Below, piece by piece: positions 6,473 through 31,312 of a stretch of DNA of 31,312 nucleotides (within the stretch, counting starts at the first letter, position 1; each line of letters starts with the position of its first letter). The position numbers were made by a program, and so were the translations under genes. The stretch comes from a virus, in IMG/VR virus record IMGVR_UViG_3300047311_000248, positions 1 to 31,312 of that record, one strand, 5' to 3'. Under the pieces are notes generated by a model that saw only the letters and a list, made by a program, of their open reading frames with translations, was not told the DNA's origin and did not search any database.

Positions 6473-9367
6473 ATGCCTATCCCGAGTGCGGGTTTTCCTG
6501 GCGCAACGTCAGGCTCAGTCCCGCCCCTGACCCCCGTAGGGTCTACCGGCAACCTACTCCAATCGACGGGATTCATCCCTCTCTGATCTCGGGGATGGTA
6601 GGCTTGACCTCAACAGGAGATTTGGTCAGCCAAGCTGGTTAGATTTCCGGCCAGCTTAAAACTGGATCTGAAGAACGGGGACCGATAAGGAACCCGATGC
6701 AAGCGCAAAAATCGCGAGCTAATGCCCGGAGGGCTAATTGTTCAGCGAGAAGTACCTAGCGGGTTTCGCCGACGCCGACGGTCATCTGTCGGTTCGAGCT
6801 AGGATCGGGGCAAGACCTGATCTGGTGTTCGAGATGGCGCAGAGAACGACACATTCAGATGTGTTGGCTTATGCACATGAGCTTTTTGGTGGGATTCTTA
6901 GAACCGAGCAGGTTCTCTACACCAAGCTTAGCCTTCGTGGCGGACATGCTAGAAAAGCGTTTGAGCGCCTGAAGAAGTACCTTGTTCTGAAGCGCGACCA
7001 AGCGGAGAGGTTTTTGGACCTTGTAGACCGCTCGGTGGTTCTAAAGACTGAGGACGATGTAAAGGCGGTACGCCAGCGTGTGAAGGAGATTCGAGCTTAC
7101 GGGGCAACTCAAGAGCCGAATTTTCCAGCACGTAAGTGGATGGCGGGATACGTTGACGGTGATGGTTCGTTCAACGTCAAGGTCTGTAAGAAAACAGGCT
7201 ATGCGTATCCTTCATTGGTAATTTTGGCGGCTCCAAATTACTTCGTGGGCATAACCCTTCTTCATAAGGCGTTTGGCGGCCAGTTACAGGCCATGGGGCA
7301 GAATGCCGTGTGGGCTGTATCTTTAAGCCAGCCAAGCAAAATCAAGCAGGTACTCGGCCATTTTGCCCAGTATCTGGTCTTGAAGAAGCCTCAAGCGTAT
7401 TTTCTTTTGGGGTGTGCAGAGAAAGGCAACCTCCGTGATGGAGAAGCCATTCGCCGCACCATAAAAGCCCTAAACGCGCAGCAGCACAGACTGAGCGATC
7501 CAGCCGCAGAGGCCGCTCGATTTGTCCAAGAGGTTCGGTTCGATGTACCGACCAGACCTTTAGGACGCCCGAAAGGGGTGATTGAGCTACAACCTCGGCG
7601 GAAGCGACAGTCGGCTCCGTAGAATATACGGACTGCGAGAAATTTTATGCGTCGACCGTTTTGTCGGCGATCAGCAATACCGACTACGAAGGCGAGATAG
7701 CGAACCAAGGCGACCGGGTGAAAATCCGGACGAAGCCTACGATCACGATCCGCAAGTATCAGGCGGACGGTTTGCTTGGTCTTGACCGACCGACTGGAGG
7801 CTCGGTCGAACTCTACATCGGCAATGGCTTTTACTTCTCTCTGATCCTCGACGACGTGATGGAGGTGCAGAGCGATCTGAATGTCTTGTCTATTTGGTCA
7901 GACGATGCAGCTCAGCAGCTAAAAATCGCAGTCGACACGGAAGTGCTCGACGGCATCGTCGGCCAATGCTCGGCGCAGAACCGCGGTGCGACGGCCGGGA
8001 AATACAGCAATCTCAACCTCGGGATCAAGGGCACGCCGATCACGGTGGTCGGGCAGGGTGCGACGGCCGGTCAGTCCAATCTGATCGATCTGCTTCTGCG
8101 CATGGGGGAGTGCCTCGACGAGCAGAACATCCCGGAGCAGGGCCGCTGGGTGGTGATGCCGGCGTGGGCCGGGCGGCAGATCAAACAATCGGAACTGCGT
8201 CAGGCTTATCTGTCGGGCGATCCGGTGAGCATGTTGAGAAACGGTAGACTGGGCATGATTGAACTTGCGATCCTTCACTAGGAAAGCTAGTGTCGAAAAC
8301 CGGGTGAACTCAGGGAAAGCTAAACTGTGAATGAAGTAGTCGCATGGCGTCTTTGGAAGATCGTGGGTCAGTTCACCGCTGACCACCGCGCAATGCTAGC
8401 GATCGAGTGTCCAGATTGTCAGCACAGGTACACTATCCGGCGCACGCAATACCGGACTTTTCGTACCTGCAATCGCTGTCGGTTTGTTGTTCAGAACCGA
8501 AAAAATCTGGGCCAGCATCGTGGCGCGGGTGACCTTACTCGGACGTTTTATAACTACTTTCGGAATGGAGCTAGACGGCGCAACATCCCGTTCGATGTAA
8601 GCATTGAATATCTATGGAACCTCGCGGTTCAGCAGGATATGCGATGCGCGCTGAGTGGCTTGGAGTTCGTTTTTCCCACCATTCAAAACGGTGTTGGCAA
8701 CTGGTCGGCTGACTACAATGCTCAGCAACGCATTCGTACAGGCGCCGGACGCATCGATGTAGCGTCTCTCGACCGTAGGAATTCTACGCTGGGCTATGTG
8801 GAAGGCAACGTTCAGTGGGTCAACAAGTGGATGAATATGGTGAAGAACGGTCTCGCTCACGACGAGTTTGTGCATGTATGCCATCTCGTTGCTTCACGGC
8901 ATGCCGATCCTGAGCCGAGCCGCCTGAACTGGTTCCCCTATGGCAGGGGATGTGTAGGGCGGAAGGTGCAGAGACTAGAAGGTGAGGCCGCCAGAGCCGA
9001 TAAGCCTTCCACGAGCGCCCGGCGCCGTAACGGGAAAGCCGACGGTGATGATATAGTCCGACACTCCGGAGAAATTCGGAGGGCAGAGGGTTAAACTCCC
9101 GCTGCATAACAGATGGATAGGTTTACCTTGTACATCAGCAACCTGCTGCCGACCAACACAACCGATTCGACCAACTTCGCAGCGGGCGAGTTCCCGATCT
9201 TCGCAGGGCATGCCCACGGGATTACGTTCGCAAGCCAGGTGAGTAAATTGGAAACGTTGAGGAGTGAGTTGACCTTTGGGCAGATCCTTCGTGGCCTACA
9301 AGTCTATGGCTATCAAGTCATTGATGGCACTGCACTTTGTCAGGCGCAGGTCATTTCTGGAGGTTAA
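6473..9367 (+). CDS. major capsid protein, interrupted by one 36-nt insertion and two group I introns
   Basis: Coding segments in one frame are 6473-6580, 6617-6640, 7640-8260 and 9116-9367, together 334 aa. Junction residues read FIP/EIWSAKLV, AKLV/KFYASTVLSAI and GRLGMI/DRFTLYISNLLP, which rebuild the continuous pattern of a phage capsid family I know from N-terminal FIPEIWS, NTDYEGEI and RLGMIDRFTLY motifs. No segment alone is a full gene, and the TTG at 7661 and ATG at 9113 are not real starts. It follows the scaffold and precedes a strong terminator, as expected of the most abundant late protein. Expression requires removal of both introns plus a solution for the 36-nt gap. I am confident of the product and the two introns, less of how the first gap is bridged. 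Confidence 0.85.
6573..6616 (+). other. 36-nt in-frame interruption of the MCP with take-off-like hairpin
   Basis: Bases 6581-6616 separate the codons for FIP from those for EIWSAKLV in the same frame and contain TGA (6584), TAG (6599) and TGA (6605). Removing exactly 36 nt restores the family motif FIPEIWS. The insertion starts at the foot of an 8-bp hairpin: TCATCCCT (6573-6580) pairs with GGGGATGG (6591-6598), with the first stop in the loop. CCT, the last codon before the gap, recurs in frame at 6608-6610. The insert ends in G. These features fit either a bypass element or a degenerate intron stub. Confidence 0.6.
6641..7639 (+). ncRNA. group I intron 1 in the MCP gene
   Basis: P1 is AAGCTGGTT (exon, 6632-6640) with GGCCAGCTT (6649-6657): nine pairs with the expected U-G at the splice site. 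P10 is GATTT (6642-6646) with exon AAATT (7640-7644). A Q-like segment (6710-6726) and P6-like GCCC/GGGC hairpin (6724-6734) precede the ORF. An S-like AAGCGACAGTCGG (7602-7614) and a P9-like hairpin (7616-7632) end the intron, whose last base is G. A possible R partner (7038-7050, GACTG with CAGTC) lies inside the ORF and is tentative. Splicing joins AKLV to KFYAST in frame. Confidence 0.78.
6738..7622 (+). CDS. intron-encoded LAGLIDADG homing endonuclease
   Basis: Protein of 294 aa with TTG start at 6738, chosen for GGAGGG at 6728-6733 and an in-frame stop just before it. Two LAGLIDADG motifs are present, YLAGFADADGHL at about residue 6 and WMAGYVDGDGSFNV at about residue 134, so it is a two-domain monomeric enzyme. 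The acidic metal-binding Asp of each motif is intact. It should cut an intronless MCP allele at the exon 1/exon 2 junction and drive intron homing; some relatives also act as maturases. Its C-terminus is unusually basic (LQPRRKRQ) and is encoded by the 3' intron core. The ribosome site overlaps a P6-like hairpin, so RNA folding may limit its translation. Confidence 0.92.
   Translation: MFSEKYLAGFADADGHLSVRARIGARPDLVFEMAQRTTHSDVLAYAHELFGGILRTEQVLYTKLSLRGGHARKAFERLKKYLVLKRDQAERFLDLVDRSVVLKTEDDVKAVRQRVKEIRAYGATQEPNFPARKWMAGYVDGDGSFNVKVCKKTGYAYPSLVILAAPNYFVGITLLHKAFGGQLQAMGQNAVWAVSLSQPSKIKQVLGHFAQYLVLKKPQAYFLLGCAEKGNLRDGEAIRRTIKALNAQQHRLSDPAAEAARFVQEVRFDVPTRPLGRPKGVIELQPRRKRQSAP
8261..9115 (+). 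ncRNA. group I intron 2 in the MCP gene
   Basis: Conserved core elements are clear: R as GTGCAGAGACTAGA (8966-8979) and S as GATGATATAGTCC (9047-9059), with P7 pairing GACTA (8973-8977) to TAGTC (9054-9058). A P-like stretch containing CTCAGGGAAAGC lies at 8309-8320 and a P9 hairpin CTCCG/CGGAG follows S. The 5' exon ends in T (8260), with a short P1 of GATT (8257-8260) to GATC (8269-8272) giving a terminal U-G. The intron ends in G (9115). Splicing joins LGMI to DRFTLY in frame. Length is 855 nt with an HNH ORF inside. Confidence 0.88.
8327..9094 (+). CDS. intron-encoded HNH homing endonuclease with zinc ribbon
   Basis: Protein of 255 aa with GTG start at 8327. The N-terminus has a four-cysteine zinc-ribbon-like pair (CPDCQHRY and CNRCRF). 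The catalytic part reads CALSGLEF, SLDRRNSTLGYVEGNVQWV and a helix ending NKWMNMVKNGL, an HNH variant frequent in phage group I introns. The last 50 residues overlap the R and S core elements of the intron RNA and look unconstrained as protein, so the ORF has grown into the ribozyme. Expected role: cutting the intronless MCP allele at the exon 2/exon 3 junction. Translation of the ORF and folding of the core must compete. Confidence 0.88.
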   Translation: MNEVVAWRLWKIVGQFTADHRAMLAIECPDCQHRYTIRRTQYRTFRTCNRCRFVVQNRKNLGQHRGAGDLTRTFYNYFRNGARRRNIPFDVSIEYLWNLAVQQDMRCALSGLEFVFPTIQNGVGNWSADYNAQQRIRTGAGRIDVASLDRRNSTLGYVEGNVQWVNKWMNMVKNGLAHDEFVHVCHLVASRHADPEPSRLNWFPYGRGCVGRKVQRLEGEAARADKPSTSARRRNGKADGDDIVRHSGEIRRAEG

Positions 9368-11770: not shown

Positions 11771-12372
11771 TCGACTTCCCCAGCAGCCCGTCCGTCGGTC
11801 AGACTTACACGTACAATAGCGTGACCTACACCTACACATCGCAAGGTGTGTGGGTGGTTCAGGTGACGTCGGGTCCGCCAGGGCCGTCCGGTCCTACCGG
11901 CGTCTCGGGCCCGACGGGGCCGGGAGGATTGGGGCCTACGGGGCCGACGGGAGTTTCTGGTGTTGGAACGCTTGGGCCGACGGGAGCTACAGGTGCTGGA
12001 GCTACAGGTCCAACGGGAGCGGTCGGTCCCACGGGTGGCGGTGGATCAGGTACAGGTGGTGCGGGTCCAACCGGACCAACGGGAGATGCAGGTGGTGCGG
12101 GAGCTGCAGGTGCGACCGGACCAACCGGATCGACTGGGAGTGCGGGTACTCCAGGCACGCCGGGTACACCTGGTGTTACCGGACCGACGGGATCGATCGG
12201 AGCAACCGGTGCAGGCGGTGCTGGTACGATCGGGCCGACGGGGAATACCGGACCAACGGGATCGGCTGGTACGGCAGGCGGGGCGGGTTCTGCTGGAGCG
12301 ACCGGGCCGACAGGAGCCACGGGGATGACCGGGCCTTATACAACGGCGATCATAGCAGGAGGGCTATTCTGA
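11767..12372 (+). CDS. collagen-like fibre protein B
   Basis: Start at ATG 11767 (ATGA overlap with fibre A) rather than the in-frame GTG at 11758. Protein of 201 aa. The N-terminal 40 residues form the small phage-fibre module [20 protein letters not shown] with VWVVQVTSG, followed by about 155 residues of Gly-X-Y repeats (GPTGPTG, GATG, GAGGAG). There is no C-terminal head; the protein ends [10 protein letters not shown] right at the collagen repeat. The next structural gene is displaced by an HNH element whose stop overlaps this stop, so a former C-terminal domain may have been lost there. Confidence 0.8.
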
Positions 12373-12930
12373 ATGTTTACGTCGGCGCAGCAATTCGGCT
12401 TCAAGTTCGGCAGCGCTGAATTGATCGAGCTTGGCGTATTTATATCGCCATTCTTTGCGAGGACGCAGGTTATTTTGTTGTTCCTTTCGAGTTGCCCAGC
12501 GCACGTTATCAGGAGAATACGGGCCATTATTATCTATGCGGTCGATAGAGGTGTTGGGCGGGCGATCCCCAACGTCCATAAGAAACAATGTAAAGTCATC
12601 CCACCGTTCGCAAACTGTAATGCCGCGTCCGCCGTAATTCATATAGTTTGGATGTTTTGGATTGTTACAGCGATAGCGCATATTTCTCCAGACGTTATAA
12701 AGAGGGTGTGGGTTTTTGTCTCTGGCATAGCCATGACTATAGTTTCCTCTCTCCCAACATCCACAAGAAGCAACGTAGCCGCATCGAAGATTGCTTCCGG
12801 AAGCAGTAAACTGGTTTCCGCAGTCACATCGACACAGCCATTGCAGACGGCCGTTTCTGTTTCTTCCAACCGGTTGGATTGCAGTCAGACGACCAAATTT
12901 TTGATTTGTGATATCGATGCGTTTGCCCAT
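12364..12930 (-). CDS. free-standing HNH endonuclease with zinc ribbon (element H2)
   Basis: Protein of 188 aa. N-terminal region [16 protein letters not shown], then a zinc-ribbon pair (CRCDCGN and SCGCWERG). The HNH core is [33 protein letters not shown], then [20 protein letters not shown] and EQQNN. This is the phage HNH/zinc-ribbon homing family shared with H3 and H4. It opposes the fibre genes, is AT-richer than they are, and its stop lies within the stop of fibre B. The ribosome site is weak (GATGGAA), unlike H3 and H4. The C-terminal tail is long and basic ([10 protein letters not shown]). Confidence 0.9.
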
Positions 12931-17994: not shown

Positions 17995-18468
17995 CTATTT
18001 ACACGTACCCCATGGCCGTTTGTTATTGGCCGATTGTTTTGGGGTCGCCCAGCGGGTATTGGCTGGGGTGTAGTTACCGTTATTGTTGATCCTATCCAGA
18101 AGGTAACCGGGCGGTCGTTTTCCCATGTCCGCGATAAAGTTCACAAAGCTTTCCCAGCGTTTGCACACTCGTATGCCGCGTGCGCCATAATAGCTGTATT
18201 TTTGATCTGTTGGATTTTCGCAACGTGCATGCATAGTGCGCCAGATACTATAGAGAGGGTGCTCTTTTCCATGTCTAGCGTGACCGTGTCTGATACATCC
18301 GCATGAGCGAACATCACCAACTATAAGTGAACAGGCGTAAGCATGACGAGAGTTACCACAGTCGCATTTGCACCACCAAAGGCGACCACGTCCAGTACCT
18401 TTGGCGAGCAGTCGGATTGCGACCAGTTTACCAAAACGCTGACCTGTGATATCTATCGGTTTGGGCAT
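17995..18468 (-). CDS. free-standing HNH endonuclease with zinc ribbon (element H3)
   Basis: Protein of 157 aa. Start context TAGGAG, 7 bases, ATG. N-terminus DITGQRFGKLVAIRLL, zinc-ribbon pair CKCDCGN and SCGCIRHG, HNH core HPLYSIWRTMHARCENPTD, YYGARGIRVCKRW, then LLDRINNNGNYTPANTRWAT and SANNKR. It is closely related to H4, with an identical 5' leader and start context, and more distantly to H2. It lies between a coiled-coil gene and the nozzle-like gene and is transcribed against them. AT-richer than its surroundings. Confidence 0.9.
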   Translation of the reverse strand: MPKPIDITGQRFGKLVAIRLLAKGTGRGRLWWCKCDCGNSRHAYACSLIVGDVRSCGCIRHGHARHGKEHPLYSIWRTMHARCENPTDQKYSYYGARGIRVCKRWESFVNFIADMGKRPPGYLLDRINNNGNYTPANTRWATPKQSANNKRPWGTCK

Positions 18469-18554: not shown

Positions 18555-20819
18555 GTGTCTGCAATAAAGCTCGAACAATTTGGCGGAATGCTTCCGGCTT
18601 GGAGCGATAGATTGTTGCCGCCGGGCCAAGCGAGTTATTCTTTGAATGCATATTTGTTTTCTGGGGAGCTTAGAGGTTGGATACAACCGAAGCTGCTTTA
18701 CACCCTGAAGAACAGCACGTTCAAGCACGCCTATCGCATCCTTAATCCAAACCCTAACGACACGACGATCACCGCCAGCAACTCATTTTGGTGGGAGCAC
18801 GCGGACGCGGACACGACGGTGCTGCATAGCCCGGTGGTTGATGACAGCTACAACCGGTTCTATTACGCCAGCCCGAGCACGGTCCCGAAGTACAACACAT
18901 ATGACCGCATCATAGCCGGCCAGCCTGACTGGATACTCGGCGTGCCCGCTTCGGGTTGTCCGCCCGGTGTCACGGTCGACGGCGGCGGCGATACCAGCCA
19001 GGTCGGCAACGTGACGGTGCTGCCTGCCGCAGCGGGCATGACCGACTACCGGCCGGGCAATGATATTTTCCTGACTCCGATCGTGCCTGGTGGCACCATG
19101 CTGATTCAGTCGGTCAGCTTCATGCCGGCATCGTCGGACGGCGCGTTGAATTTCCAGGCCGTCGTCTATTCCGATCTCAATGGCGCTCCGGGCCAGCTTC
19201 TCGGTGCTGGCGACCAGATCACCGGCATCTCGGCCGGGACGACGGCGGTAGGCACGTTTCAGAACGGCGTCTCGGTCATCAGCAATACGACCTACTGGGT
19301 CGGGATTGCACACGACAATCCGTTCTACCTGAACATTGCCGACAATCGCGTTCAGAACGGGGCGTCAGGCTCCCATACCTTTTCGAACGGCCCGCCCGAT
19401 CCGATCGCAGCAACCGGTGGCTTTCCGGTCTGGCAGATGTGGGGCGATCTGCTCGGCGCGTCAGTGTTTGTTGCTCGCGCTTACGTCTACACCTGGGTGA
19501 CGGCTTACGGCGAGGAAGGGCCACCCTCGGAGCCTACCGTCGTCAACGGATGGTCGAACGCGACCTGGACCGTGAGCCTGTTCACGCCGACCCCCGCCGA
19601 CATGGGGGTTGATCGCAACATCACGCATACGCGCATCTACCGCTCGATCACCAACGTCTCTGGCCAGGGCACCTATTTCCTGGTGGCGGAAATCCCGGTC
19701 ACCCAGGCGGTCTATGTCGATACGATCGACGACGCGACCGTGGCACTCAATTCGCAGCTGCAGTCACTCTACTGGTACGCCCCGCCGTCCGATCTGAAAG
19801 GCTTCGTGGCGTTCCCGAACGGGATCGCGGTCGGCTGGAAGTCAAACGAGGTGTGGTTCTCGGAACCATATCGCCCGCACGCCTGGCCGCCGAATTATGT
19901 GCTGACGACGGCGTTCCCGATTGTCGGCGTCGGGGTGTGCGGGCAGGCGATCGTGGTCTGCACCCAGAGCACGCCCTACGTGATCACCGGGGTCAATCCC
20001 TCGGCGATGTCGATGATCAAGATCAACCTGGCGGAACCGTGCCTGACCCACGGCTCGATCGTCGCGACCGACACGACGGTCCTGTACGCCTCGCAGAACG
20101 GCCTGATCCAGATCAGCCAGTCGGGCGCAGGCGCCAACATCACTGAGGGCTGGATCACCCGCGAGCGCTGGCAGGCGCTGACGCCGCAAAAGCTGATTCG
20201 GGCGATCAAGCACGCGACGAGCTACTTCGCCTTCGGCACGACCTCGGGAGCCGATGTCTCGGTGGCGCAGCAGGGCTATACGGTCGAGCTGTCGACGCAG
20301 GACCAGACCAGCTTCACGATCTGGCCCGTCCCGGGCGGCCACCGACTAGGTTTTAGTGAACTTAGTAGCCCCAACGGATTTAATGTTGACAACGTACTGC
20401 AAGACCCCTGGACCGGAGTTGGATTGTTGGTTCAGTCAGGCGGCATCTGGTACTACGATTTCACCGAACAAGATCCAGTTATTGTCCCATATAAGTGGAA
20501 ATCGAAAACCTACCAACAACTAAGCGCGAAAAACTTTTCCGCAATGAAGCTGTGGTTTACGGTACCGACCACCACGCCTGCACAAGGAGATCGTAATACA
20601 GCAGAGCCGCAGCCGATATTAGGTCCAGATCAATACGGGATTGTGAGGGTGTACGCGGACGACCAACTCTATCAAACAAGAGAGCTGCGCAGGAGCGGGG
20701 AGTTGCTGCGTATCCACAGCGGCATCAAGGCCGAGGCTTGGGCTTTCGAGGTTGAGTCAAGGGTCCAAATCTCGAACTGGCAAATTGCTACGAGCGCGAA
20801 GGAGCTCGGGCTGATTTAG
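18555..20819 (+). CDS. large tail protein, nozzle/tail-tube-B-like, 754 aa
   Basis: GTG start at 18555 after GAGG. The N-terminus (KLEQFGGMLPAWSDRLLPPGQA, shown in part) resembles the opening of podovirus nozzle or tubular-B proteins, which begin with a short segment describing non-repeating loops. Middle part: a carbohydrate-binding-like beta domain (about 150-280), an FN3/Ig-like segment (YVYTWVTAYGEEGPPSEPT) and a propeller-like region (GFVAFPNGIAVGWKSNEVWF, TVLYASQNGLIQISQSG). The size matches T7 gp12 (about 794 aa). It probably forms the distal tail tube. The call is by size, position and style, not a proven homology. Its 3' end overlaps H4 by 32 bp. Confidence 0.6.
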   Translation: MSAIKLEQFGGMLPAWSDRLLPPGQASYSLNAYLFSGELRGWIQPKLLYTLKNSTFKHAYRILNPNPNDTTITASNSFWWEHADADTTVLHSPVVDDSYNRFYYASPSTVPKYNTYDRIIAGQPDWILGVPASGCPPGVTVDGGGDTSQVGNVTVLPAAAGMTDYRPGNDIFLTPIVPGGTMLIQSVSFMPASSDGALNFQAVVYSDLNGAPGQLLGAGDQITGISAGTTAVGTFQNGVSVISNTTYWVGIAHDNPFYLNIADNRVQNGASGSHTFSNGPPDPIAATGGFPVWQMWGDLLGASVFVARAYVYTWVTAYGEEGPPSEPTVVNGWSNATWTVSLFTPTPADMGVDRNITHTRIYRSITNVSGQGTYFLVAEIPVTQAVYVDTIDDATVALNSQLQSLYWYAPPSDLKGFVAFPNGIAVGWKSNEVWFSEPYRPHAWPPNYVLTTAFPIVGVGVCGQAIVVCTQSTPYVITGVNPSAMSMIKINLAEPCLTHGSIVATDTTVLYASQNGLIQISQSGAGANITEGWITRERWQALTPQKLIRAIKHATSYFAFGTTSGADVSVAQQGYTVELSTQDQTSFTIWPVPGGHRLGFSELSSPNGFNVDNVLQDPWTGVGLLVQSGGIWYYDFTEQDPVIVPYKWKSKTYQQLSAKNFSAMKLWFTVPTTTPAQGDRNTAEPQPILGPDQYGIVRVYADDQLYQTRELRRSGELLRIHSGIKAEAWAFEVESRVQISNWQIATSAKELGLI

Positions 20820-21300
20820 AAGGACGCCTATTCGCGGCCTGTTCCTTGGGAGTAGACCACTTGATGTTGCCTGGTTCGTAATGGCCATCGTTGTTGATGC
20901 GATCGAGAGACTTACCGGGCGGACGGTCACCAATTTCAGTGGTGACATCAGCAACGAATTTAACGATGTTACGCCGCCATTTCGGAGCTTTGATTCCGCG
21001 ACCGCCGTAGTTTTTATATCTTTTATTGTTCGGGTTGTAGCATCGTTGAATCATAGTTTTCCAAATACCGTAGAGCGGATGCAATTCCCCATCTTTAGCG
21101 TAACCGTGGCGATAAAACCTCGCTCTGCAACCGCAAGAGCGGACGTGATCGCGCAGAAGATCATGGGGAGTGACGAGCTTTACATTGCCGCAATCGCATT
21201 GGCAAAGCCACAATATGTTCCCGTCAGATCGTTCGGCCGTTGGCCGGATTGCAACCAGATGACTGAAACGCTGGCCTGTGATATTAATCGCTGTGGGCAT
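20788..21300 (-). CDS. free-standing HNH endonuclease with zinc ribbon (element H4)
   Basis: Protein of 170 aa. N-terminus NITGQRFSHLVAIRPT, zinc ribbon CQCDCGN and SCGCRARF, HNH core HPLYGIWKTMIQRCYNPNN, NYGGRGIKAPKW, then SLDRINNDGHYEPGNIKWST and EQAANRR. In the middle motif most relatives have C-x-x-W; here it is APKW, so one cysteine is missing. Start context TAGGAG, 7 bases, ATG, identical to H3. Its last 11 codons are read antisense to the end of the nozzle-like gene, the deepest overlap of the four elements. Confidence 0.9.
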   Translation of the reverse strand: MPTAINITGQRFSHLVAIRPTAERSDGNILWLCQCDCGNVKLVTPHDLLRDHVRSCGCRARFYRHGYAKDGELHPLYGIWKTMIQRCYNPNNKRYKNYGGRGIKAPKWRRNIVKFVADVTTEIGDRPPGKSLDRINNDGHYEPGNIKWSTPKEQAANRRPSKSARAPSRS

Positions 21301-23736: not shown

Positions 23737-25640
23737 TGGCAAAGCGCAGGATCGGCTACCAGGATGGTGGCGATGTCATGGATGACATCGGTGCGGGCCC
23801 TCCCGTCCTCAATCCTGGAGCGATGGCGCAACCCAGGCAGGCTGGTGGCGGCGGCAGGGGGTTGTCCGGCCTGATCAGCCAGGGCGTCAGCAACGCCAAA
23901 CAGGAGTGCATGGAAGACGCCGTTGGGCGGGGGAGCCGCCATGCGTCGGCGGAATGCGCGGATGCCGGGACTTTTGCGCGCGGGGGCCCGGTTGGATACG
24001 CCAACGGCGGCGCTATCCAGCCCGGCGCCGACATGAACCGGCGTGCTTCTCTCCTTGCCGGCTTGCGCAAACGCTACGACGCCATGATCGGCATGGCGCA
24101 GGGCGCGCTGGCGCACCGGGACGAGGATGCAGCCATCCGTTTCGCCCAGCGGGCCCACGACATGGTGCCGGACGGCAAGAGCTTGATCCTGCATGTGCAG
24201 CCCGATGGCAACGTCCTTGCGATCGTCCACGATCCGCGCGGCGGCGAGCACAGCCGGCATGTCATGACGCCGGATCAGTTCCACCATTATTTAATCGGTC
24301 CGGCGACCAGCTTCGACCATGTGATCGAGAACGGTGTCGGGCATAATCTCGGCATCGCGACTGGGCGGCCGACGCCGCGCCAACCGGACCACCCTGCCGA
24401 TCCGATCCACAAGGTGCGCCAGGTGCTGCAGCACACCCGCAAGATGTTCGGCGTCGACAAGATCGGCCAGGCCCCGCCGCGCGTGGGGTATGCGGTAGGT
24501 GGCCCGGTGCGGGTCGACGATACGTTGCCGCCGGATCCGGCATGGACAACTCAGGATGAGCGAGACAATCCGCCGCCCCCTGATGCACCGGATGACAGGC
24601 AGCCTTTGTGGGAGCAATTTGCACGCAAACATTTTGGCTACGGCGACGTTCCAGACGTCGGCACAGAGCCAGTTCCTTCTGATGATGAGGCTGATCGCAC
24701 ACCGTTGTACCAACAATGGGCGCAGAAACATCTCGGCCCGATCAAGGACACGATTGCGAGCTATCTCGGCGGCGCCAATGCAGCGTCTCCGCAGGAAGTA
24801 GATAGCACCCTGCAAGGCGTCGCCGAGCAAAATCCCGGCCTAACCATTCCCGAAACCGTGCAGCGGGCAGTTGCCGAGCAAAATCCGAGCTTGAACGCTT
24901 CCGGAACTACTTCGGGGGACGATAGAACTGTGGGCACTGGTTACGGTGGGGCTCAGACTAATCAGCCGTCGTCGAACGACAATCGCGAAGAGTTCTTTCG
25001 GCGATTGATGGCGGACCGGGACAAGGCGGTCAGTCAGTATGTCATTCAGGCCCCAGGGTCGCGGGCGCAAAGCAGCAGTCTGCTTCCCGAAACCGGGTTG
25101 CTGTCTTCTACTGACACCAAGACCGGAAAAGTCACGGAAACACCGCTCGGCATGCGGCAGCGCGAGGCAGCACAGACCCCCTCCCTACATGAGTTTTTGA
25201 ACCCTAAACCTGCTGTCGCTGGCGCCCTTCCCGCGCCGCCGAAAATGACCGGCAACAAGGCCGTGGACGAGCACAACATAGCGATCTGGAAAGAGCAGGC
25301 GATTGCTGCTCGCGGCTCGATCAGTCAGCAGAATGCCGCTACGGCGATCCAACAGCGTGCCGCCACCGCCGCCGAGGCAGGCATGTCCAGGGATGCCATA
25401 GCGGTTCTGCGGAATATCCAGGCCAAAGGCGGCGCCGAAACGGACGATGAGAAATTCGTAGAGCGTGAATACACTACGCGCGTCAGGCAAAATCTTGAAA
25501 AAATGAAAGGTCAGGGCGGCGGTCAGGCGCAAGCAGGTGGCCAACAGCGGGTCAAAGTTGGCTCGATCGCGGAAGCACGCAAGCTGCCGAGCGGCACGCT
25601 GATAACGCTACCTGACGGATCACCGGGGCAAGTACCCTGA
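23736..25640 (+). CDS. internal virion / ejection protein, 634 aa
   Basis: Start coupled to the upstream stop. The protein is Gly/Ala/Pro-rich and repetitive. Several R-x-G-Y-x-x-GG segments (RRIGYQDGGDV, GPVGYANGGAI, PPRVGYAVGGPV) separate a helical domain (about 100-135, RRASLLAGLRKRYDAMIGMA) and a compact beta segment with SLILHVQPDGNVLAIVHD and VMTPDQFHHYL. Two near repeats of WEQFARKHFGYGD and YQQWAQKHLGPIKD occur near 290-330, and two of AEQNPGL/AEQNPSL near 360-380. The C-terminal third is helical. It is a probable ejection protein. No enzyme domain is recognised. Confidence 0.6.
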   Translation: MAKRRIGYQDGGDVMDDIGAGPPVLNPGAMAQPRQAGGGGRGLSGLISQGVSNAKQECMEDAVGRGSRHASAECADAGTFARGGPVGYANGGAIQPGADMNRRASLLAGLRKRYDAMIGMAQGALAHRDEDAAIRFAQRAHDMVPDGKSLILHVQPDGNVLAIVHDPRGGEHSRHVMTPDQFHHYLIGPATSFDHVIENGVGHNLGIATGRPTPRQPDHPADPIHKVRQVLQHTRKMFGVDKIGQAPPRVGYAVGGPVRVDDTLPPDPAWTTQDERDNPPPPDAPDDRQPLWEQFARKHFGYGDVPDVGTEPVPSDDEADRTPLYQQWAQKHLGPIKDTIASYLGGANAASPQEVDSTLQGVAEQNPGLTIPETVQRAVAEQNPSLNASGTTSGDDRTVGTGYGGAQTNQPSSNDNREEFFRRLMADRDKAVSQYVIQAPGSRAQSSSLLPETGLLSSTDTKTGKVTETPLGMRQREAAQTPSLHEFLNPKPAVAGALPAPPKMTGNKAVDEHNIAIWKEQAIAARGSISQQNAATAIQQRAATAAEAGMSRDAIAVLRNIQAKGGAETDDEKFVEREYTTRVRQNLEKMKGQGGGQAQAGGQQRVKVGSIAEARKLPSGTLITLPDGSPGQVP

Positions 25641-28600
25641 TGGCTGATGACGACGATGACGAGTCCGATGACGACCTGCAGTCGGAGCAGCCTGTACAGG
25701 TAGCGGACGCCGGAGCCGACGACTGGTCCGCGTTCCGCACGCAGCCTGCAACGCAGCCCTCCAGACCGACCGACGAATGGGCGGCGTTTCGCCAGCCGCA
25801 AACATCCGGCGCAGGCGACGAATGGGCAGCGTTCCGCACCGGGCAACAACAACCGCAACAGCCGAAGGCCGAGAGCCCGTTCTGGACGACGCTGCGCCAT
25901 GTCGCGCATGGGCTGTTGCCGTCTGCCGCTGGTCTGGCGGCAATTCCGGGCGGCATTGCAGCGGGCGCCGCCATCGGCCTACCAGAGGCGGGTATAGGTG
26001 CCATTCCGGGCGCCTTCATCGGTGGTAGCTTGGCTTACATGGGGGCACGCGCCGCTCAGGACACTGGCGCCAAGCTGCTGGGCTTCGGTGACGACCAGCA
26101 AATGGCGGCCGACGATGCCGCTAACCCCAAGTCGGCGGTAGTGGGCGACATCCTGAGTGCAGCGCCGTTCCTTGGTCCGGGTGCTGCACCCGCTGCCGTG
26201 CGGGCGGGCGGCGCGCTGTTCGGCGCGGGCATGGAGGCGTTCAATCAGTGGAAGTCGGGCGAGGATTTCGACCCAGCACGACTTGCCATAGCGGGCGCTG
26301 GTGGCGCCTTCTTGACCACGCCAACCCGGGCTGGCGAGGCGATCGGCTCCAGGGCGGCGGCTGCCATCGGTCGACCCGATCTGTGGCACGGACCGGCTGC
26401 CGGCGAGAGCAAGGGGACTGCTACAGAACAGCCATCGCCTAAAGCTGGAACGCCGGTCGAGCCTGGCGCCGCTGCAGCCACGCCGGAAGCGACGGCTCCG
26501 GCCGGCGACAGAACCGGTCCGGAGGATCTTGGCAAGGAGGCGCCGCCTGCTTCCGCCGTCCAGCAGGGGGGGGGCACCGAGGGACTAGTCCCCGATCCGG
26601 CGCTGGACGCAGCGATCCGCGCCAAGATGGAGCCAGAGGGCGAAGCTGCAGCCCCGCCGCCGGGACAAGAGCCAGCAGCTCCGGCAATCCCGTCGGTTGC
26701 CGCCGAGCAGCAGGCGCAGCCAGCAACCCCGCGCGAGGCCATCGCGCAGCGCGCCCCGGGCGAGACGGTTGGGGAGGCGATGCGGCGGCAAGTCCTGGAG
26801 CGTGGCCGCTCCGGGCGTCCGATCGAGACCGAACCGCTGCCGATCGGCACCGAGCCGGCGATCCTCGAGAAAGGCCTGGAGCGGGCGACCGGACCTCGAC
26901 CCGAGGCTGAGCCGGCACCGCCAGGTCCGCCGCCGGGTGCAGGCGCGCCCCCACCAAAGCCGCCCACGGTCGGGCAGGCAGCGGCTGCGGGGGCCGGAAA
27001 GACGCCGCCGCCTGGTGCGCCGCCTAGCATGCCGAAGAACCGCTCGAACTTAAGCAATCTGTGGCGATCGATGAAGCTGCTAGTCGGGTCCGACATTGGG
27101 CCCTATGGCCGGGTAGCGGAACATGTCATTCGCGGGTCTTATGGTGAGGCCCAACGACTATTCGAGCAATCCATAAACCTGCTCAATCCACATCAGGAAA
27201 CGATTAGCGCCATGAGCGCTGCGGACCGCGCGGCGATGAACAACAAGATCGAAGGTGGCGACCGGTTCCCTGACTGGCAGCCTACGCCCGAGCAGCAGCA
27301 CGCGATGGACGACGTCAAGAAAGCGATGGACTTGTGGAAAGGAAAACTGCAGGGCCTTGGGCGCACAGAGGAGATGAATTTTGTCGAGAACTATCTCACG
27401 CATATGTACTCGAACCCGGAGGCCGAAACTCGTCAATTTTTCAGCCAATTTGGCAAGCGGGGCGGCGCGGGCAGCACCAAGGCACGAACCCATGCAACCT
27501 ACGAGGACGCCAAAGACGCTGGTCTAACGCCAATCAGCGACAATCCGATCGAGCTTGCGACGCGCTATGGCCTGTCGATGAAACAGTTCATCGCGGCCAA
27601 TGACGTCCTCGAGCGCGGGGTCAAGACCGGGGTTGTCGGATATTTCACGCCCGGGAAAATGGTCGGCGCCACCGGCTCTCCCGAACCGCACCAGGTCGGC
27701 GGACCGCCTCCCGGCTGGAAGAAACTCAATGCTCCGTCCAAAGGACCTTTCCTTGAGGCTTATGCGCCAGAGGATTTTGCCGACAAGTACAACGCCTTCT
27801 ACAGCCAGGGCCTGCGAGGGGCACACGCACCCATCTACGACGCTTTGCGCAGTGCAAATGCCGGGTGGACAATGATGGAGCTCGGGCTGAACGCCTATCA
27901 CTTTTTCACCATGGCCAACGAGGCGATCATTTCGGACGTGAAGCGTGGACTCGATCAGTTTTTTACCGGCCAGTTCAAGGAGGGAGCCAAGACCATCGCC
28001 GGAGCGCCGCTCGCACCCGGAACCCGCTACATCGAAGGCAAGCGGTTCCAGCGGGAGTACCTCGACCCGAACAGCACAAATCCGATTGCGTCGATCATGG
28101 CCGAAGCCAATGCACGACCGGTCGGCCGCGGACACGCCTACGACATCCTCGGCAGCGCCGGCGACGAGAACATATCCCGCGGATCGTTCATCAAGAATTT
28201 CGACAAGGACAAGATCAACTCCCAGCTCAAGCAGGCATGGGACGACGTTAAGGATGATTGGGGCCTAGCCGACACCGTCGGAAAGCAGGCCATGTTCCCA
28301 TTCAAGCAGGCATCTCGCGTTCTGCAGACCGTCGGCGCCCCGCTGTTCGACAAGTACATTCCGGCGCTCAAGGCCGGTGCCATGCACGCTCAGATGGCGG
28401 ACTGGCTGGCGGCCAACCCGCATATCGACATCAACACTCCGGCGGGCCGGCAGGCGGCCGTGGAGATGGCCATGAAGATTTCAGATAGCGTGGACAATGC
28501 CTTCGGCGAGATGGTGCATGACAATCTTTTTATGAACCAGGCGCTGCGGCATGCGGCGATGGTCGCCATGCGTTCGTTCTCGTGGTCGATCGGCGCCATG

Positions 28601-29320
28601 CGCCAAATCGGCGGGGGCACCTACGCCGCCGGCAAGGCTGCAGCACTGTCGCTCAAAACCGGTGAAAACCGCTTCAGCATGGCGCATCCGGAATTTGATC
28701 CGCGGATCAGCTATGCCATCGCCTTCCCGTTTGTGGTGGCGACCATATCGGCCATCTATCAGGGTCTGCGGGCCGGCGAAGCCCCACAAGACTGGCGCGA
28801 CCTCTACGCCCCGCGGACAGGCGGCACCGTCCCGGGGCTCGGCGGCAAAGGGCAGGTGCCGGAGCACGCCTTGATGCCAGGATTCCAGAAGGACGTTTAC
28901 GGCTGGCTCAGCCATCCACTGCGAGAGGCCTACGCCAAGCTGGGCGGCCTTCCCACGACGGCCATCGAACATATCACCAACCGGGACTGGCGCGGCGACC
29001 CCATCGCCCAGCGCGGAGCCAGCCCAATCGATCAGTTCCAGCAGCACATGGCGCATCTGTTCAGCAAGTTGGGACCGATCGGGGCTAGAGCCATAGCCAA
29101 GGGGCAGCCGGCGACCTCGGGGATCACCCCCGTGGAAACCGCCCTCGGCTTCCGTGCCCCAGGCGTCGACATCCAAGATCCACAACGCCTCGAGAAATGG
29201 ATGGCCGCGTCGGCGAAGAAGGAATGGAAGGGCAAGGAGCGGCACGACAAGACAGAGCAACGCAAGTACGCGCGTGAACGGGTTTATGATCCGCGAGAAC
29301 GAGAGCAACAGCCACAGTAA
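25640..29320 (+). CDS. very large internal virion (ejection) protein, 1226 aa
   Basis: It starts at 25640, overlapping the preceding stop. The N-terminus is acidic with repeats ([24 protein letters not shown]), followed by glycine-rich hydrophobic segments (about 95-150, [33 protein letters not shown]) that could insert into membrane. A Pro/Ala-rich region covers about 250-460. The helical C-terminal half ([58 protein letters not shown]) resembles domains at the C-terminus of large polyvalent phage proteins (LPD38-like). It is analogous in size and place to T7 gp16. I see no lytic transglycosylase motif. It probably forms a trans-envelope conduit for DNA. Confidence 0.68.
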
Positions 29321-29493: not shown

Positions 29494-29811
29494 ATGGCCC
29501 TCCCAGATGCAGCCCGCAAGGCAATGTTCGCGAATATCGCCAGCAACAAGCTCCCCGGCACCGGACCCGCACTTCCGCGGCCGCCTCGAGCGCCGCGGCC
29601 CTCAGGCATGAGCAAGGGCACGGGGCCGATGCCCGCCAGCTATGCCGCGGGGGGGCCGGTGATCCAAGAATCCCGCAGCCGATTCATGAAAACGCCGAAT
29701 GTTTTCACTACCGATATCGAACGCCAAAGCTATCCTAAGTCTGGCAAAACTGGCGAGATGTCGAACACCACCAAGGATAAGTCATTGCCCGCGATTAAAC
29801 CGCGCGCCTGA
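29494..29811 (+). CDS. small Pro/Gly-rich protein, 105 aa
   Basis: It starts three bases after the preceding stop. The N-terminus (DAARKAMFANIASNKLPG) is helical, then a Pro/Arg-rich stretch and YAAGGPVIQESRSRFMKTP. The C-terminus is hydrophilic and basic. The AAGGPV motif echoes the GG segments of the ejection proteins upstream, suggesting a small virion or internal component. No family is recognised. Confidence 0.5.
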   Translation: MALPDAARKAMFANIASNKLPGTGPALPRPPRAPRPSGMSKGTGPMPASYAAGGPVIQESRSRFMKTPNVFTTDIERQSYPKSGKTGEMSNTTKDKSLPAIKPRA

Positions 29812-30001
29812 TTTACCCAGGAGTTCCGAGTGCCGACGGGCGATGAATGGTTCCTGTCCCGAATCGCATAGCCCGGGAAAGCCAAGGACGGTCAAACTCT
29901 CTCGTTGGTTGACATCAGACCGATCTGCGGAGTGCGGCACTCGGAAGCTTCTTGCGGGACCATTCATTGCGCACACACCCAAAGCCGAGCATGAATGGCC
30001 C
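29812..30001. repeat. non-coding gap with three copies of ATGAATGG
   Basis: No convincing gene is present; a 13-codon ORF starting with GTG near 29830 is the only one with a plausible ribosome site. ATGAATGG occurs at 29843 and 29991 and inverted at 29960-29967. The first and the inverted copy form 9-bp arms (29843-29851 with 29959-29967) and both lie beside CCC/GGG runs. This could be a protein-binding array or a remnant of rearrangement. Confidence 0.4.
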
Positions 30002-30196
30002 GTGACCAGATCGCATAAAAAGACCCCGATCGCCGGCTTCACCACCGTGCGCAGCGAAAAGGCTTTCAAGCAGGTGGAAAACCGGCGACAGCGTGCCGCT
30101 GTGCGTACAGGGCAGGAATTCATTCCCGAGTCATACGGACCCAAGGATGGACGGCAATGGCTCGGCAAGGACTATCCAAAAGCCTTGCGCAAATAA
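30002..30196 (+). CDS. small basic protein, 64 aa
   Basis: GTG at 30002 is the likely start; the ribosome site is poor. The product begins RSHKKTPIAGFTTVRSEKAF and continues KQVENRRQRAAVRT, ending DGRQWLGKDYPKAL. This recalls a widespread family of short basic bacterial and phage proteins with the pattern R-x-x-KTPI-x-G-x-T, S-E-K and a C-terminal DGRxW. Function unknown to me. It is the last rightward gene and ends 11 bases before the parS-like palindrome. Confidence 0.6.
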   Translation: MTRSHKKTPIAGFTTVRSEKAFKQVENRRQRAAVRTGQEFIPESYGPKDGRQWLGKDYPKALRK

Positions 30197-30207
30197 ATCG
30201 TCGCGGG

Positions 30208-30221
30208 GTTTCACGTGAAAC
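30208..30221. promoter_or_regulatory. parS: parS-like ParB-binding palindrome
   Basis: The perfect 14-bp palindrome GTTTCACGTGAAAC is identical to the core of the chromosomal parS site known from Caulobacter and other bacteria. It is the only copy I find in the window. It lies between the converging ends of a rightward and a leftward gene, abutting the stop codon of the latter. A specific 14-mer is expected by chance about once in 10^8 bases per strand, so chance is unlikely. ParB genes are not present here. Confidence 0.8.
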
Positions 30222-30470
30222 TCAACAATCCTCTCCTTGCGCCATGTGGCGGCTTATTGCCTTCTGATCGTGATATTCCAAATTCTGTGGTTCAACCCAT
30301 CGGATCAGCCGAACCTCGACCTCGACAACACCGCACCCACCAGGGAGACAGGCTTTCTTCTCCCGCAGGGATTTCTCGCTCGGGAAAAGAACTGTTCCGT
30401 CCGCGTCGGCCTCGAGTTGGTGCTGCCAATCGATGCCGTCCATGAAGCATCGAACCGTTCCGTCCGCCAT
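30222..30470 (-). CDS. conserved hypothetical protein, 82 aa
   Basis: Start at 30470 (minus strand), with AGGAGG six bases upstream; a longer in-frame start at 30512 would absorb this site. The sequence begins MADGTVRCFMDGIDWQHQL, contains FPSEKSLREKKACLPGGCGV, and a strand-rich VEVEVRLIRWVEPQN. I recall similar short proteins in rhizobial genomes and their phages, without a known function. It runs in the same direction as the integrase, about 180 bases downstream of it, and may be co-transcribed. Its stop touches the parS-like palindrome. Confidence 0.7.
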   Translation of the reverse strand: MADGTVRCFMDGIDWQHQLEADADGTVLFPSEKSLREKKACLPGGCGVVEVEVRLIRWVEPQNLEYHDQKAISRHMAQGEDC

Positions 30471-30530
30471 CTTCCGCCTCCTGCGGCTCCCTGCGCCGTG
30501 TTGCCTGTTCAATCGCTACTGACATTCAAT

Positions 30531-30591
30531 GATTTCAATGGCCCGGCGCTTTTGGGCGCTGAGCGGAAACACCCCTTAACCAATTGAAATC
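30531..30591. repeat. inverted repeat between integrase and the 82-aa gene
   Basis: GATTTCAAT (30531-30539) and ATTGAAATC (30583-30591) are 9-bp inverted repeats around a GC-rich centre with a possible GCGC/GCGC hairpin. It lies 57 bases beyond the integrase stop, followed by two TAGTCA repeats (30604-30619). It could be a terminator, an integrase arm-site region or part of an attachment site. The remaining bases of the gap hold nothing else I recognise. Confidence 0.35.
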
Positions 30592-30647
30592 GCTAGATCC
30601 TGGTAGTCAATGCTAGTCATCGATGTTCGCGTTGCGTTTCCGGTGAT

Positions 30648-31312
30648 TTACGACGCATCCGTTCCCGCCTTGTTCCGGCTTGCGGCGCGCCCCTTCATCA
30701 CCCTGGCAATCGCCTTGGTGTCGTCCCGCGAGTAGGCTTGGGTCTGGCTGACGTTGCTGTGGGTCGCGGTGCGGCGCACGTCATCCATGGCGGCAACGTC
30801 CGTCCCTTCCGTGATCGCGCCGGCCCGGCTGTCCATGTTCCAGACGTGTTTTGGAATTCCGACCGCAGTCGCGACCTTGCGCCACTTCTCGCGGAAGTTC
30901 TTGGCTTGCCACGCCACTCCGGTTGCCTCGCAAATGATCAACGGGCCCTTCTCGGGGAACTTGCCGGCTAGATCCAGTTCCGCCATGACCATCGGGGCCA
31001 GGCGCAGATCGACCTCGACCGGCTTCTGCCGTTTGCTGGTCATGTGGCGCAGGATCAGATTGGCGTCGATCTCCTCGCCCCTAATACCTCTAAGCCACTT
31101 CCATTGACCGTCGTGGACATCCGACAGTTCCGGCTCGCCCATCGGTACCCATTCCCCGATCACGTCCTTTTGCCGCAGGGTGCATTCGAACTGGAACGCC
31201 TGGGCGAGCGCGATCGAGTGGCGGCCGAGCTCGTGGGCCTTGGCGATGATGGCGAGTGCCTGGGTCGCCGTGATGTATTCCTTCCGGGGCTTGCCCATCT
31301 TGAAGCGCAGCA
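30648..31312 (-). CDS. int: phage integrase, tyrosine recombinase (N-terminus outside window)
   Basis: The frame is open to the right edge of the window (codons LRFK precede the first visible Met at 31298), so the N-terminal arm-binding and core-binding parts lie beyond it. The visible 216 residues are the catalytic domain. The first catalytic arginine lies in the helix FQFECTLRQKDVIGEW, an ILRHMTSKRQKPVEV beta segment supplies the Lys, the second box reads NMDSRAGAITEG (Arg present, the usual His replaced by Met), then THSNVSQTQAYSRD with His and the Tyr nucleophile. It catalyses integration and excision at att sites. It is transcribed away from the window edge, toward the parS-like site. 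Confidence 0.88.
   Translation of the reverse strand, partial: LRFKMGKPRKEYITATQALAIIAKAHELGRHSIALAQAFQFECTLRQKDVIGEWVPMGEPELSDVHDGQWKWLRGIRGEEIDANLILRHMTSKRQKPVEVDLRLAPMVMAELDLAGKFPEKGPLIICEATGVAWQAKNFREKWRKVATAVGIPKHVWNMDSRAGAITEGTDVAAMDDVRRTATHSNVSQTQAYSRDDTKAIARVMKGRAASRNKAGTDAS

Follow-up and report, generated by a model that had tools for sequence, protein, structure and literature searches.

The DNA analysed here, termed the window, is the entire IMG/VR record IMGVR_UViG_3300047311_000248, of 31,312 bp, and is therefore a genome fragment. It belongs to a temperate, podovirus-like phage from soil. Towards its right end a 14-bp palindrome is situated at the junction between virion genes and an integrase gene (Table 1). 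The genes to the left are of virion type, with matches to head, internal virion and endolysin proteins, followed by a 1226-aa open reading frame (ORF) and small ORFs. The palindrome itself is flanked by the end of a small plus-strand ORF (30196) and by the stop of a minus-strand ORF (from 30222), and some 430 bp separate it from the integrase ORF, which ends (3′) on the side facing it.

Table 1. Features at the junction between the virion genes and the integrase gene, in window positions
Feature	Position	Strand	Basis or occurrence
Protein of 1226 aa, the final large one of virion type before the junction	25640..29320	+	ORF list and profile matches
Small ORF, 64 aa, GTG start	30002..30196	+	sequence reading; arrangement A only
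Palindrome GTTTCACGTGAAAC, match to the chromosomal parS core	30208..30221	.	exact match; 90/101 genomes of the order of M. crusticola
34-bp core, parS plus TCAACAATCCTCTCCTTGCG	30208..30241	.	unchanged in arrangements A, B and C; both flanks rearranged
Small ORF, about 82 aa (internal ATG) or 96 aa (TTG 30512)	30222..30470	-	ORF list
Tyrosine recombinase (integrase), C-terminal part	30648..31312	-	N-terminus lost at contig end

The integrase, which is about 409 aa at full length in relatives, has no match in Pfam, PHROGs or NCBIfam. Its residues R235, K282, R351, H373 and Y382 are invariant in an alignment of eight homologues and fit the tyrosine recombinase signature; by this motif the protein is classed as a tyrosine recombinase. 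The best matches are phage proteins of Bradyrhizobium and Sinorhizobium phages, and a distant one carries a tyrosine recombinase annotation. The structure predicted by AlphaFold has a pLDDT of 44.6, too low for use. These signature residues in the neighbouring gene bear out the preliminary description, which had placed the parS-like site next to a phage integrase.

The nearest named relatives by portal/capsid are the Rhizobium phages RHph_TM27A and kin (60.9 kb, 57%/65% identity), and among named integrase matches the Bradyrhizobium prophage ppBjS10J-1 ranks first (52%). The host is probably a rhizobia-like alphaproteobacterium.

Several other elements were observed in the window. A group I intron match (RF00028, 8251–9081, 50.6 bits, E 5.5e-10), with an ORF inside it, is situated between two parts of the apparent major capsid gene (ORFs 7661–8281 and 9113–9367); such a match was also obtained in relative G007 (L174, 2138–2455). 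A LAGLIDADG endonuclease ORF (6738–7622) directly precedes the capsid part at 7661–8281, which begins at position 61 of its PHROG profile, and the capsid gene perhaps has a second intron or an intein here. Minus-strand ORFs at 1333–1905, 12364–12930, 17995–18468 and 20788–21300, which sit among plus-strand virion genes, resemble free-standing homing endonucleases of the HNH/AP2 type, with a profile match (AP2/HNH_3) in relative G003 only. Between 10958 and 16884 several ORFs have long collagen-like Gly-Pro-Thr-Gly repeats and are probably virion fibres.

Identity of the palindrome

The sequence GTTTCACGTGAAAC is an exact 14-bp palindrome and matches the palindromic parS core GTTNCACGTGAAAC at every position; a crystal structure study of ParB describes the parS site as 14 bp long (PMC7383237). 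It is the sole such site in the window, even when zero to three mismatches are permitted. Under a trinucleotide Markov model, the expected number of exact copies is 7e-5 in the window and 1.1e-4 in a 61-kb relative. The full 16-bp consensus, with an outer T and A, is not present, as the flanking bases are G and T; a departure from the outer T/A is also found in 45 of 117 viral flank types of the 14-mer among the matches listed. Perfect 14-bp palindromes other than parS do occur in genomes of this phage clade. The assignment of the window palindrome as a chromosomal-type orphan parS, as predicted from its sequence, is well supported, and the preliminary description had read it in the same way: the match is exact, in single copy and far above chance.

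In the order to which Methylobacterium crusticola belongs, 90 of 101 genomes have the same 14-mer, and one of 101 has the reversed sequence, used as control. Copies typically number one to a few per genome and are often about 2 kb apart. In M. crusticola (L195) the 14-mer falls within the first part of a gene resembling rsmG/gidB, whose neighbours resemble mnmG/gidA on one side and parA on the other, a gid/par location that is as expected for a chromosomal parS. Judged by this sequence identity, a host of the kind found in this order should have a ParB that recognises the phage site. Thus the phage site resembles the chromosomal parS of ParABS systems (consensus TGTTNCACGTGAAACA) in having the exact 14-bp core found in these genomes and at the Methylobacterium gid/par locus, but it differs in being single-copy in most records, in having no parAB nearby and in having outer bases other than T/A.

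The junction in related phages

Thirteen viral contigs have the integrase at 97–98% identity, in records of 31–61 kb. The site position is covered by 12 of them; 11 have the exact 14-mer, and G008 has 12 of 14 bases, with one half-site (GTGAAAC) intact. The thirteenth, G012, begins inside the integrase. The check proposed in the preliminary description, that the site be sought at the same place in related phages, is thus answered by 11 of 12 close relatives with an exact copy at the same junction. It should be noted that the relatives fall into few lineages, and therefore these are not 12 independent observations. G003 (61 kb) overlaps G007 in circularly permuted form, which suggests a genome size of about 60 kb for the clade. 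Most records have one site per phage. In G005 (IMGVR_UViG_3300046517_000324) a second near-parS sequence, GTTTCACGTGAGAC, matches 13 of 14 bases at 53356–53369.

The junction shows four gene arrangements, of which A, B and C are each present in two or more assemblies. In arrangement A (window, G001, G007, G009, G010 and G011) the order is 64-aa ORF, site, 82/96-aa ORF, integrase; G010 and G011 begin near the site, so that their left side is visible only in part. Arrangement B (G002, G003, G005 and G006) has neither small ORF, the virion side abuts the site, and the distance to the 3′ end of the integrase ORF is about 185 bp. In arrangement C (G004 and G013) the 82/96-aa ORF is on the opposite, left side of the site. 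Arrangement D, represented by G008, has the degenerate site and again no small ORFs. In A, B and C alike neither the palindrome nor the 20 bp to its right vary, and homology begins precisely with its first base, what lies to the left being unrelated. A 24-mer made of the site and part of its flank is confined, within the viral collection, to the 11 contigs with the exact site.

The conservation of bases is weak evidence of function because the 20-bp flank is conserved equally with the palindrome, and the integrase block is variable at just 47 of 666 columns. The persistence of the site through rearrangement is the better argument.

The junction is on phage DNA, since it is found internally in viral contigs of up to 61 kb and matches host genomes weakly: the 30.2–31.3 kb region is common to viral contigs at 94–97%, with phage genes on either side, and it, including its 30.2–30.7 kb part, gave only weak, scattered matches against 397 genomes of the host order. 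These findings settle whether the region is phage or host, and they rule out a host flank. They lend no support to the suggestion, made in the preliminary description, that the site marks phage integration near the host origin; the site is seen on phage DNA inside viral contigs, and not near a chromosome origin as is typical of parS. A tRNA gene or a clear attB was looked for, and none was found.

Farther from this clade the site is rare. The exact site is absent in the distant integrase relatives L143–L147, the Bradyrhizobium prophage and Sinorhizobium phage NV1.1.1, and no site was found within an 11.9-kb stretch of L148, an integrase relative in Methylobacterium crusticola. Within the order, 22 of 397 genomes encode integrase homologues (29–46%), with no site within the roughly 4 kb examined at these loci. 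Of 48 records with a related portal, many of them fragments, 45 have no site at two or fewer mismatches, and these include three cultured Rhizobium phages. Among portal relatives with a copy, G504 has an exact one within a long ORF, G470 a 13/14 copy within an ORF, and G483 the full TGTTCCACGTGAAACA in an apparently non-coding stretch, which fits the consensus TGTTNCACGTGAAACA (PMC7022226). The full 16-bp TGTTCCACGTGAAACA was observed at L466 1501–1514, in a 64-kb record of a distant portal relative, with no relative of the window integrase in the 3 kb examined. As nearly all records of the wider family have no site, it is a trait of a single clade, and at least one other occurrence is probably independent. 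The preliminary description would have given up its proposal were the site absent from all relatives; this is not so for the close relatives and is so for most distant members and for the cultured ones.

The phages themselves appear to have no partition genes. Profile searches gave no ParB_N match in 20 relative records of up to 61 kb and no ParA-type ATPase (AAA_31 model) in 14 records, the window itself being a fragment. No match to HTH_ParB was over the cut-off; there are sub-threshold matches in three relatives, and the protein concerned was rejected as a phage ParB, being an MT-A70 methyltransferase that has an HTH at its N-terminus. When 50 G003 proteins were compared with Pfam, the 25 families displayed included RecT, an ArdC-type protein, CI-like HTH proteins, portal and terminase, and no partition protein was among them. 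A phage-encoded ParABS, with a ParB gene and a ParA-type ATPase on the same genome, was not found in the records searched. The earlier remark that the window has neither parA nor parB holds, there being no ParB domain in the window or its relatives and no AAA_31 match.

Orphan parS sites on other viral contigs

A scan of IMG/VR for the 14-mer gave, among the matches listed, 121 usable sites with 117 distinct flank types. Among these listed matches, 53% of sites are outside ORFs of at least 100 aa, compared with 14% of random positions, and the consensus outer T/A is present in 72 of the 117 flank types (62%), where about seven are expected. Thirty-six of the 45 listed contigs of at least 25 kb have no ParB domain; 25 of these 36 have T/A flanks and 17 have the site outside long ORFs. 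MnmG, RsmG and ParA were found at none of the 169 viral loci among the matches listed, with L195 as positive control; by that test the loci are therefore not host par loci, and contamination by such loci was rejected as the source of the matches. Overlooked host flanks, or a ParB lost beyond contig ends, are possible at some loci. Some viral contigs, such as L029 and L074, have up to five exact parS sites among the matches listed, and in multi-site contigs (within L002 to L121 and L198 to L246) MnmG, RsmG and ParA are absent in the stretch examined.

Control palindromes behaved in opposite ways, and therefore no claim is made from raw parS counts: one 16-mer had no matches and another at least 109 sites. 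For the control TGTTCTACGTAGAACA (L247–L366), 65 of 109 sites among the matches listed belong to one flank family and are mostly non-coding, and it is probably a conserved element of another phage group. The general argument rests instead on flank diversity, T/A flanks and location. These properties lead to a tentative proposal, somewhat more doubtful than not: that orphan parS is a recurrent, selected trait in many unrelated ParB-less phages, where it might load host ParB-CTP clamps such that phage DNA is moved, positioned or condensed by the host machinery for chromosome segregation, and that the present clade keeps its integrase-adjacent site through module exchange.

Proposed recruitment of host ParB and other explanations

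From its sequence the site is very probably able to bind host ParB. That it is an orphan chromosomal-type parS which recruits host ParB-CTP clamps for positioning or partition of phage DNA is a proposal to which we give an even chance, by analogy with SGI1 and published parS systems. It is established that ParB, once bound to parS, forms a closed CTP clamp and spreads from it; for Caulobacter ParB tested in E. coli this spreading reaches as far as 2 kb from one parS, wherever the site is placed (PMC5815017). Host ParB would bind the phage parS after infection or excision, close as a CTP clamp and slide about 1–2 kb to each side, so that clamps would cover the integrase gene and the presumed att region. 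The clamps may then tie phage DNA to the host ParABS/SMC machinery, and the circular phage DNA would as a result be positioned and passed on evenly, whether integration followed later or not at all. Binding, spreading and benefit at the phage site are all conjectured from published systems. Plasmids are known to be stabilised by a chromosomal par operon together with a single parS (PMC7022226).

Several observations speak against a partition role, namely the G/T outer bases, the presence of mostly one site per phage, the 12/14 site of G008, and the absence of the site from most distant family members and from the cultured relatives. In addition, an integrated prophage would be partitioned with the chromosome and have no need of a parS. 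Caulobacter cells are killed by a plasmid that has two strong parS sites (PMC5815017), and therefore a multicopy phage site could harm the host.

The main alternative shares the same ParB binding event and supposes local gene control, with clamps that repress or insulate the integrase and cargo genes and so couple integration to the host cell cycle. The distances from site to integrase 3′ end in arrangements A and B are well under the 2-kb spreading range of ParB (PMC5815017), the site is just upstream of the small cargo gene in arrangement C, and an artificial parS upstream of a promoter reduces expression in Pseudomonas (PMC7022226); KorB, which belongs to the ParB family, is reported to silence over long distances (PMC11790492). 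In arrangement A, however, the site lies where two converging genes end, not at a promoter, and there is no promoter-like match in 29800–31312. Such a role is unlikely, if the most plausible of the other readings. The missing promoter-like match also tells against an operator for another DNA-binding protein, a phage repressor or a host regulator. A 14-bp intergenic palindrome that adjoins an integrase gene would suit an operator, and phages of the family do encode CI-like HTH proteins; yet phage operators usually come in sets whereas this one is single-copy per genome, and its sequence is identical to parS, all of which leaves an operator very unlikely. The position between converging ORFs in arrangement A, with a possible stem of 5–7 bp, raises the question of an RNA-level hairpin acting as a terminator. 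There is no T-run, no terminator-like match and no Rfam match, and the folding energy equals that of shuffled sequences (z about 0), so that this candidate was rejected on all of these searches and is extremely improbable.

There are two further explanations. The palindrome could mark a boundary of recombination, where modules are exchanged at a hot spot or through short homology, with its parS likeness incidental or left over. This would account for the left edge of the homologous block, which in arrangements A, B and C coincides with that of the palindrome, and for the cargo ORF being on either side of it. But other perfect 14-bp palindromes are found in these genomes, it is improbable that a palindrome would match this one parS sequence by accident, and parS recurs on unrelated viral contigs, mostly with consensus flanks among the matches listed; a boundary role is thus quite unlikely. 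The site could also be a neutral relic: a piece of host DNA with parS, acquired a single time, that has since been passed on along with an integrase module of recent spread. The integrase block is 2–4% diverged in close relatives, and shared ancestry alone could retain the site; its decay to 12/14 in G008 and the distant members without it agree with this. Against a relic are the intact site across three gene arrangements and, among the matches listed, the repeated origin of similar orphan sites in unrelated phages, with a preference for non-coding DNA. A relic is distinctly unlikely, slightly more so than a boundary.

The proposed recruitment of host ParB can be compared with known systems. 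The closest is SGI1, an integrating mobile element without cognate par genes that carries ParB sites of another replicon: its two parS mimics bind ParB of the helper IncC plasmid and raise SGI1 stability (PMC10954446). The phage is alike in that it has the site and no parAB of its own was found; a host par system would be expected from the order. SGI1, however, uses the parABS of its helper plasmid, as experimentally shown, whereas the phage would use host chromosomal ParB. Exploitation of parS by a mobile element is known; what differs here is that the chromosomal system would be its target. No report of phage use of host chromosomal ParB via an orphan parS was found in a literature search that reached few subscription papers. 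Active partition of phage DNA, as proposed here, is a property shared with the ParABS of P1-type prophage plasmids and phage-plasmids, but in those the phage genome supplies ParB and ParA itself, and in this clade neither was found. The single intact half-site GTGAAAC of G008 resembles the half-parS sites of Pseudomonas aeruginosa (PMC10419367) and could bind ParB weakly; unlike these, the window has the complete palindrome.

If host ParB does load on phage DNA, phages could gain partition, polar positioning or condensin loading from 14 bp rather than from two genes. The idea makes a simple, testable prediction for many viral contigs that have parS and no ParB. Host ParB would then, if the idea is true, become a factor in lysogeny and infection.
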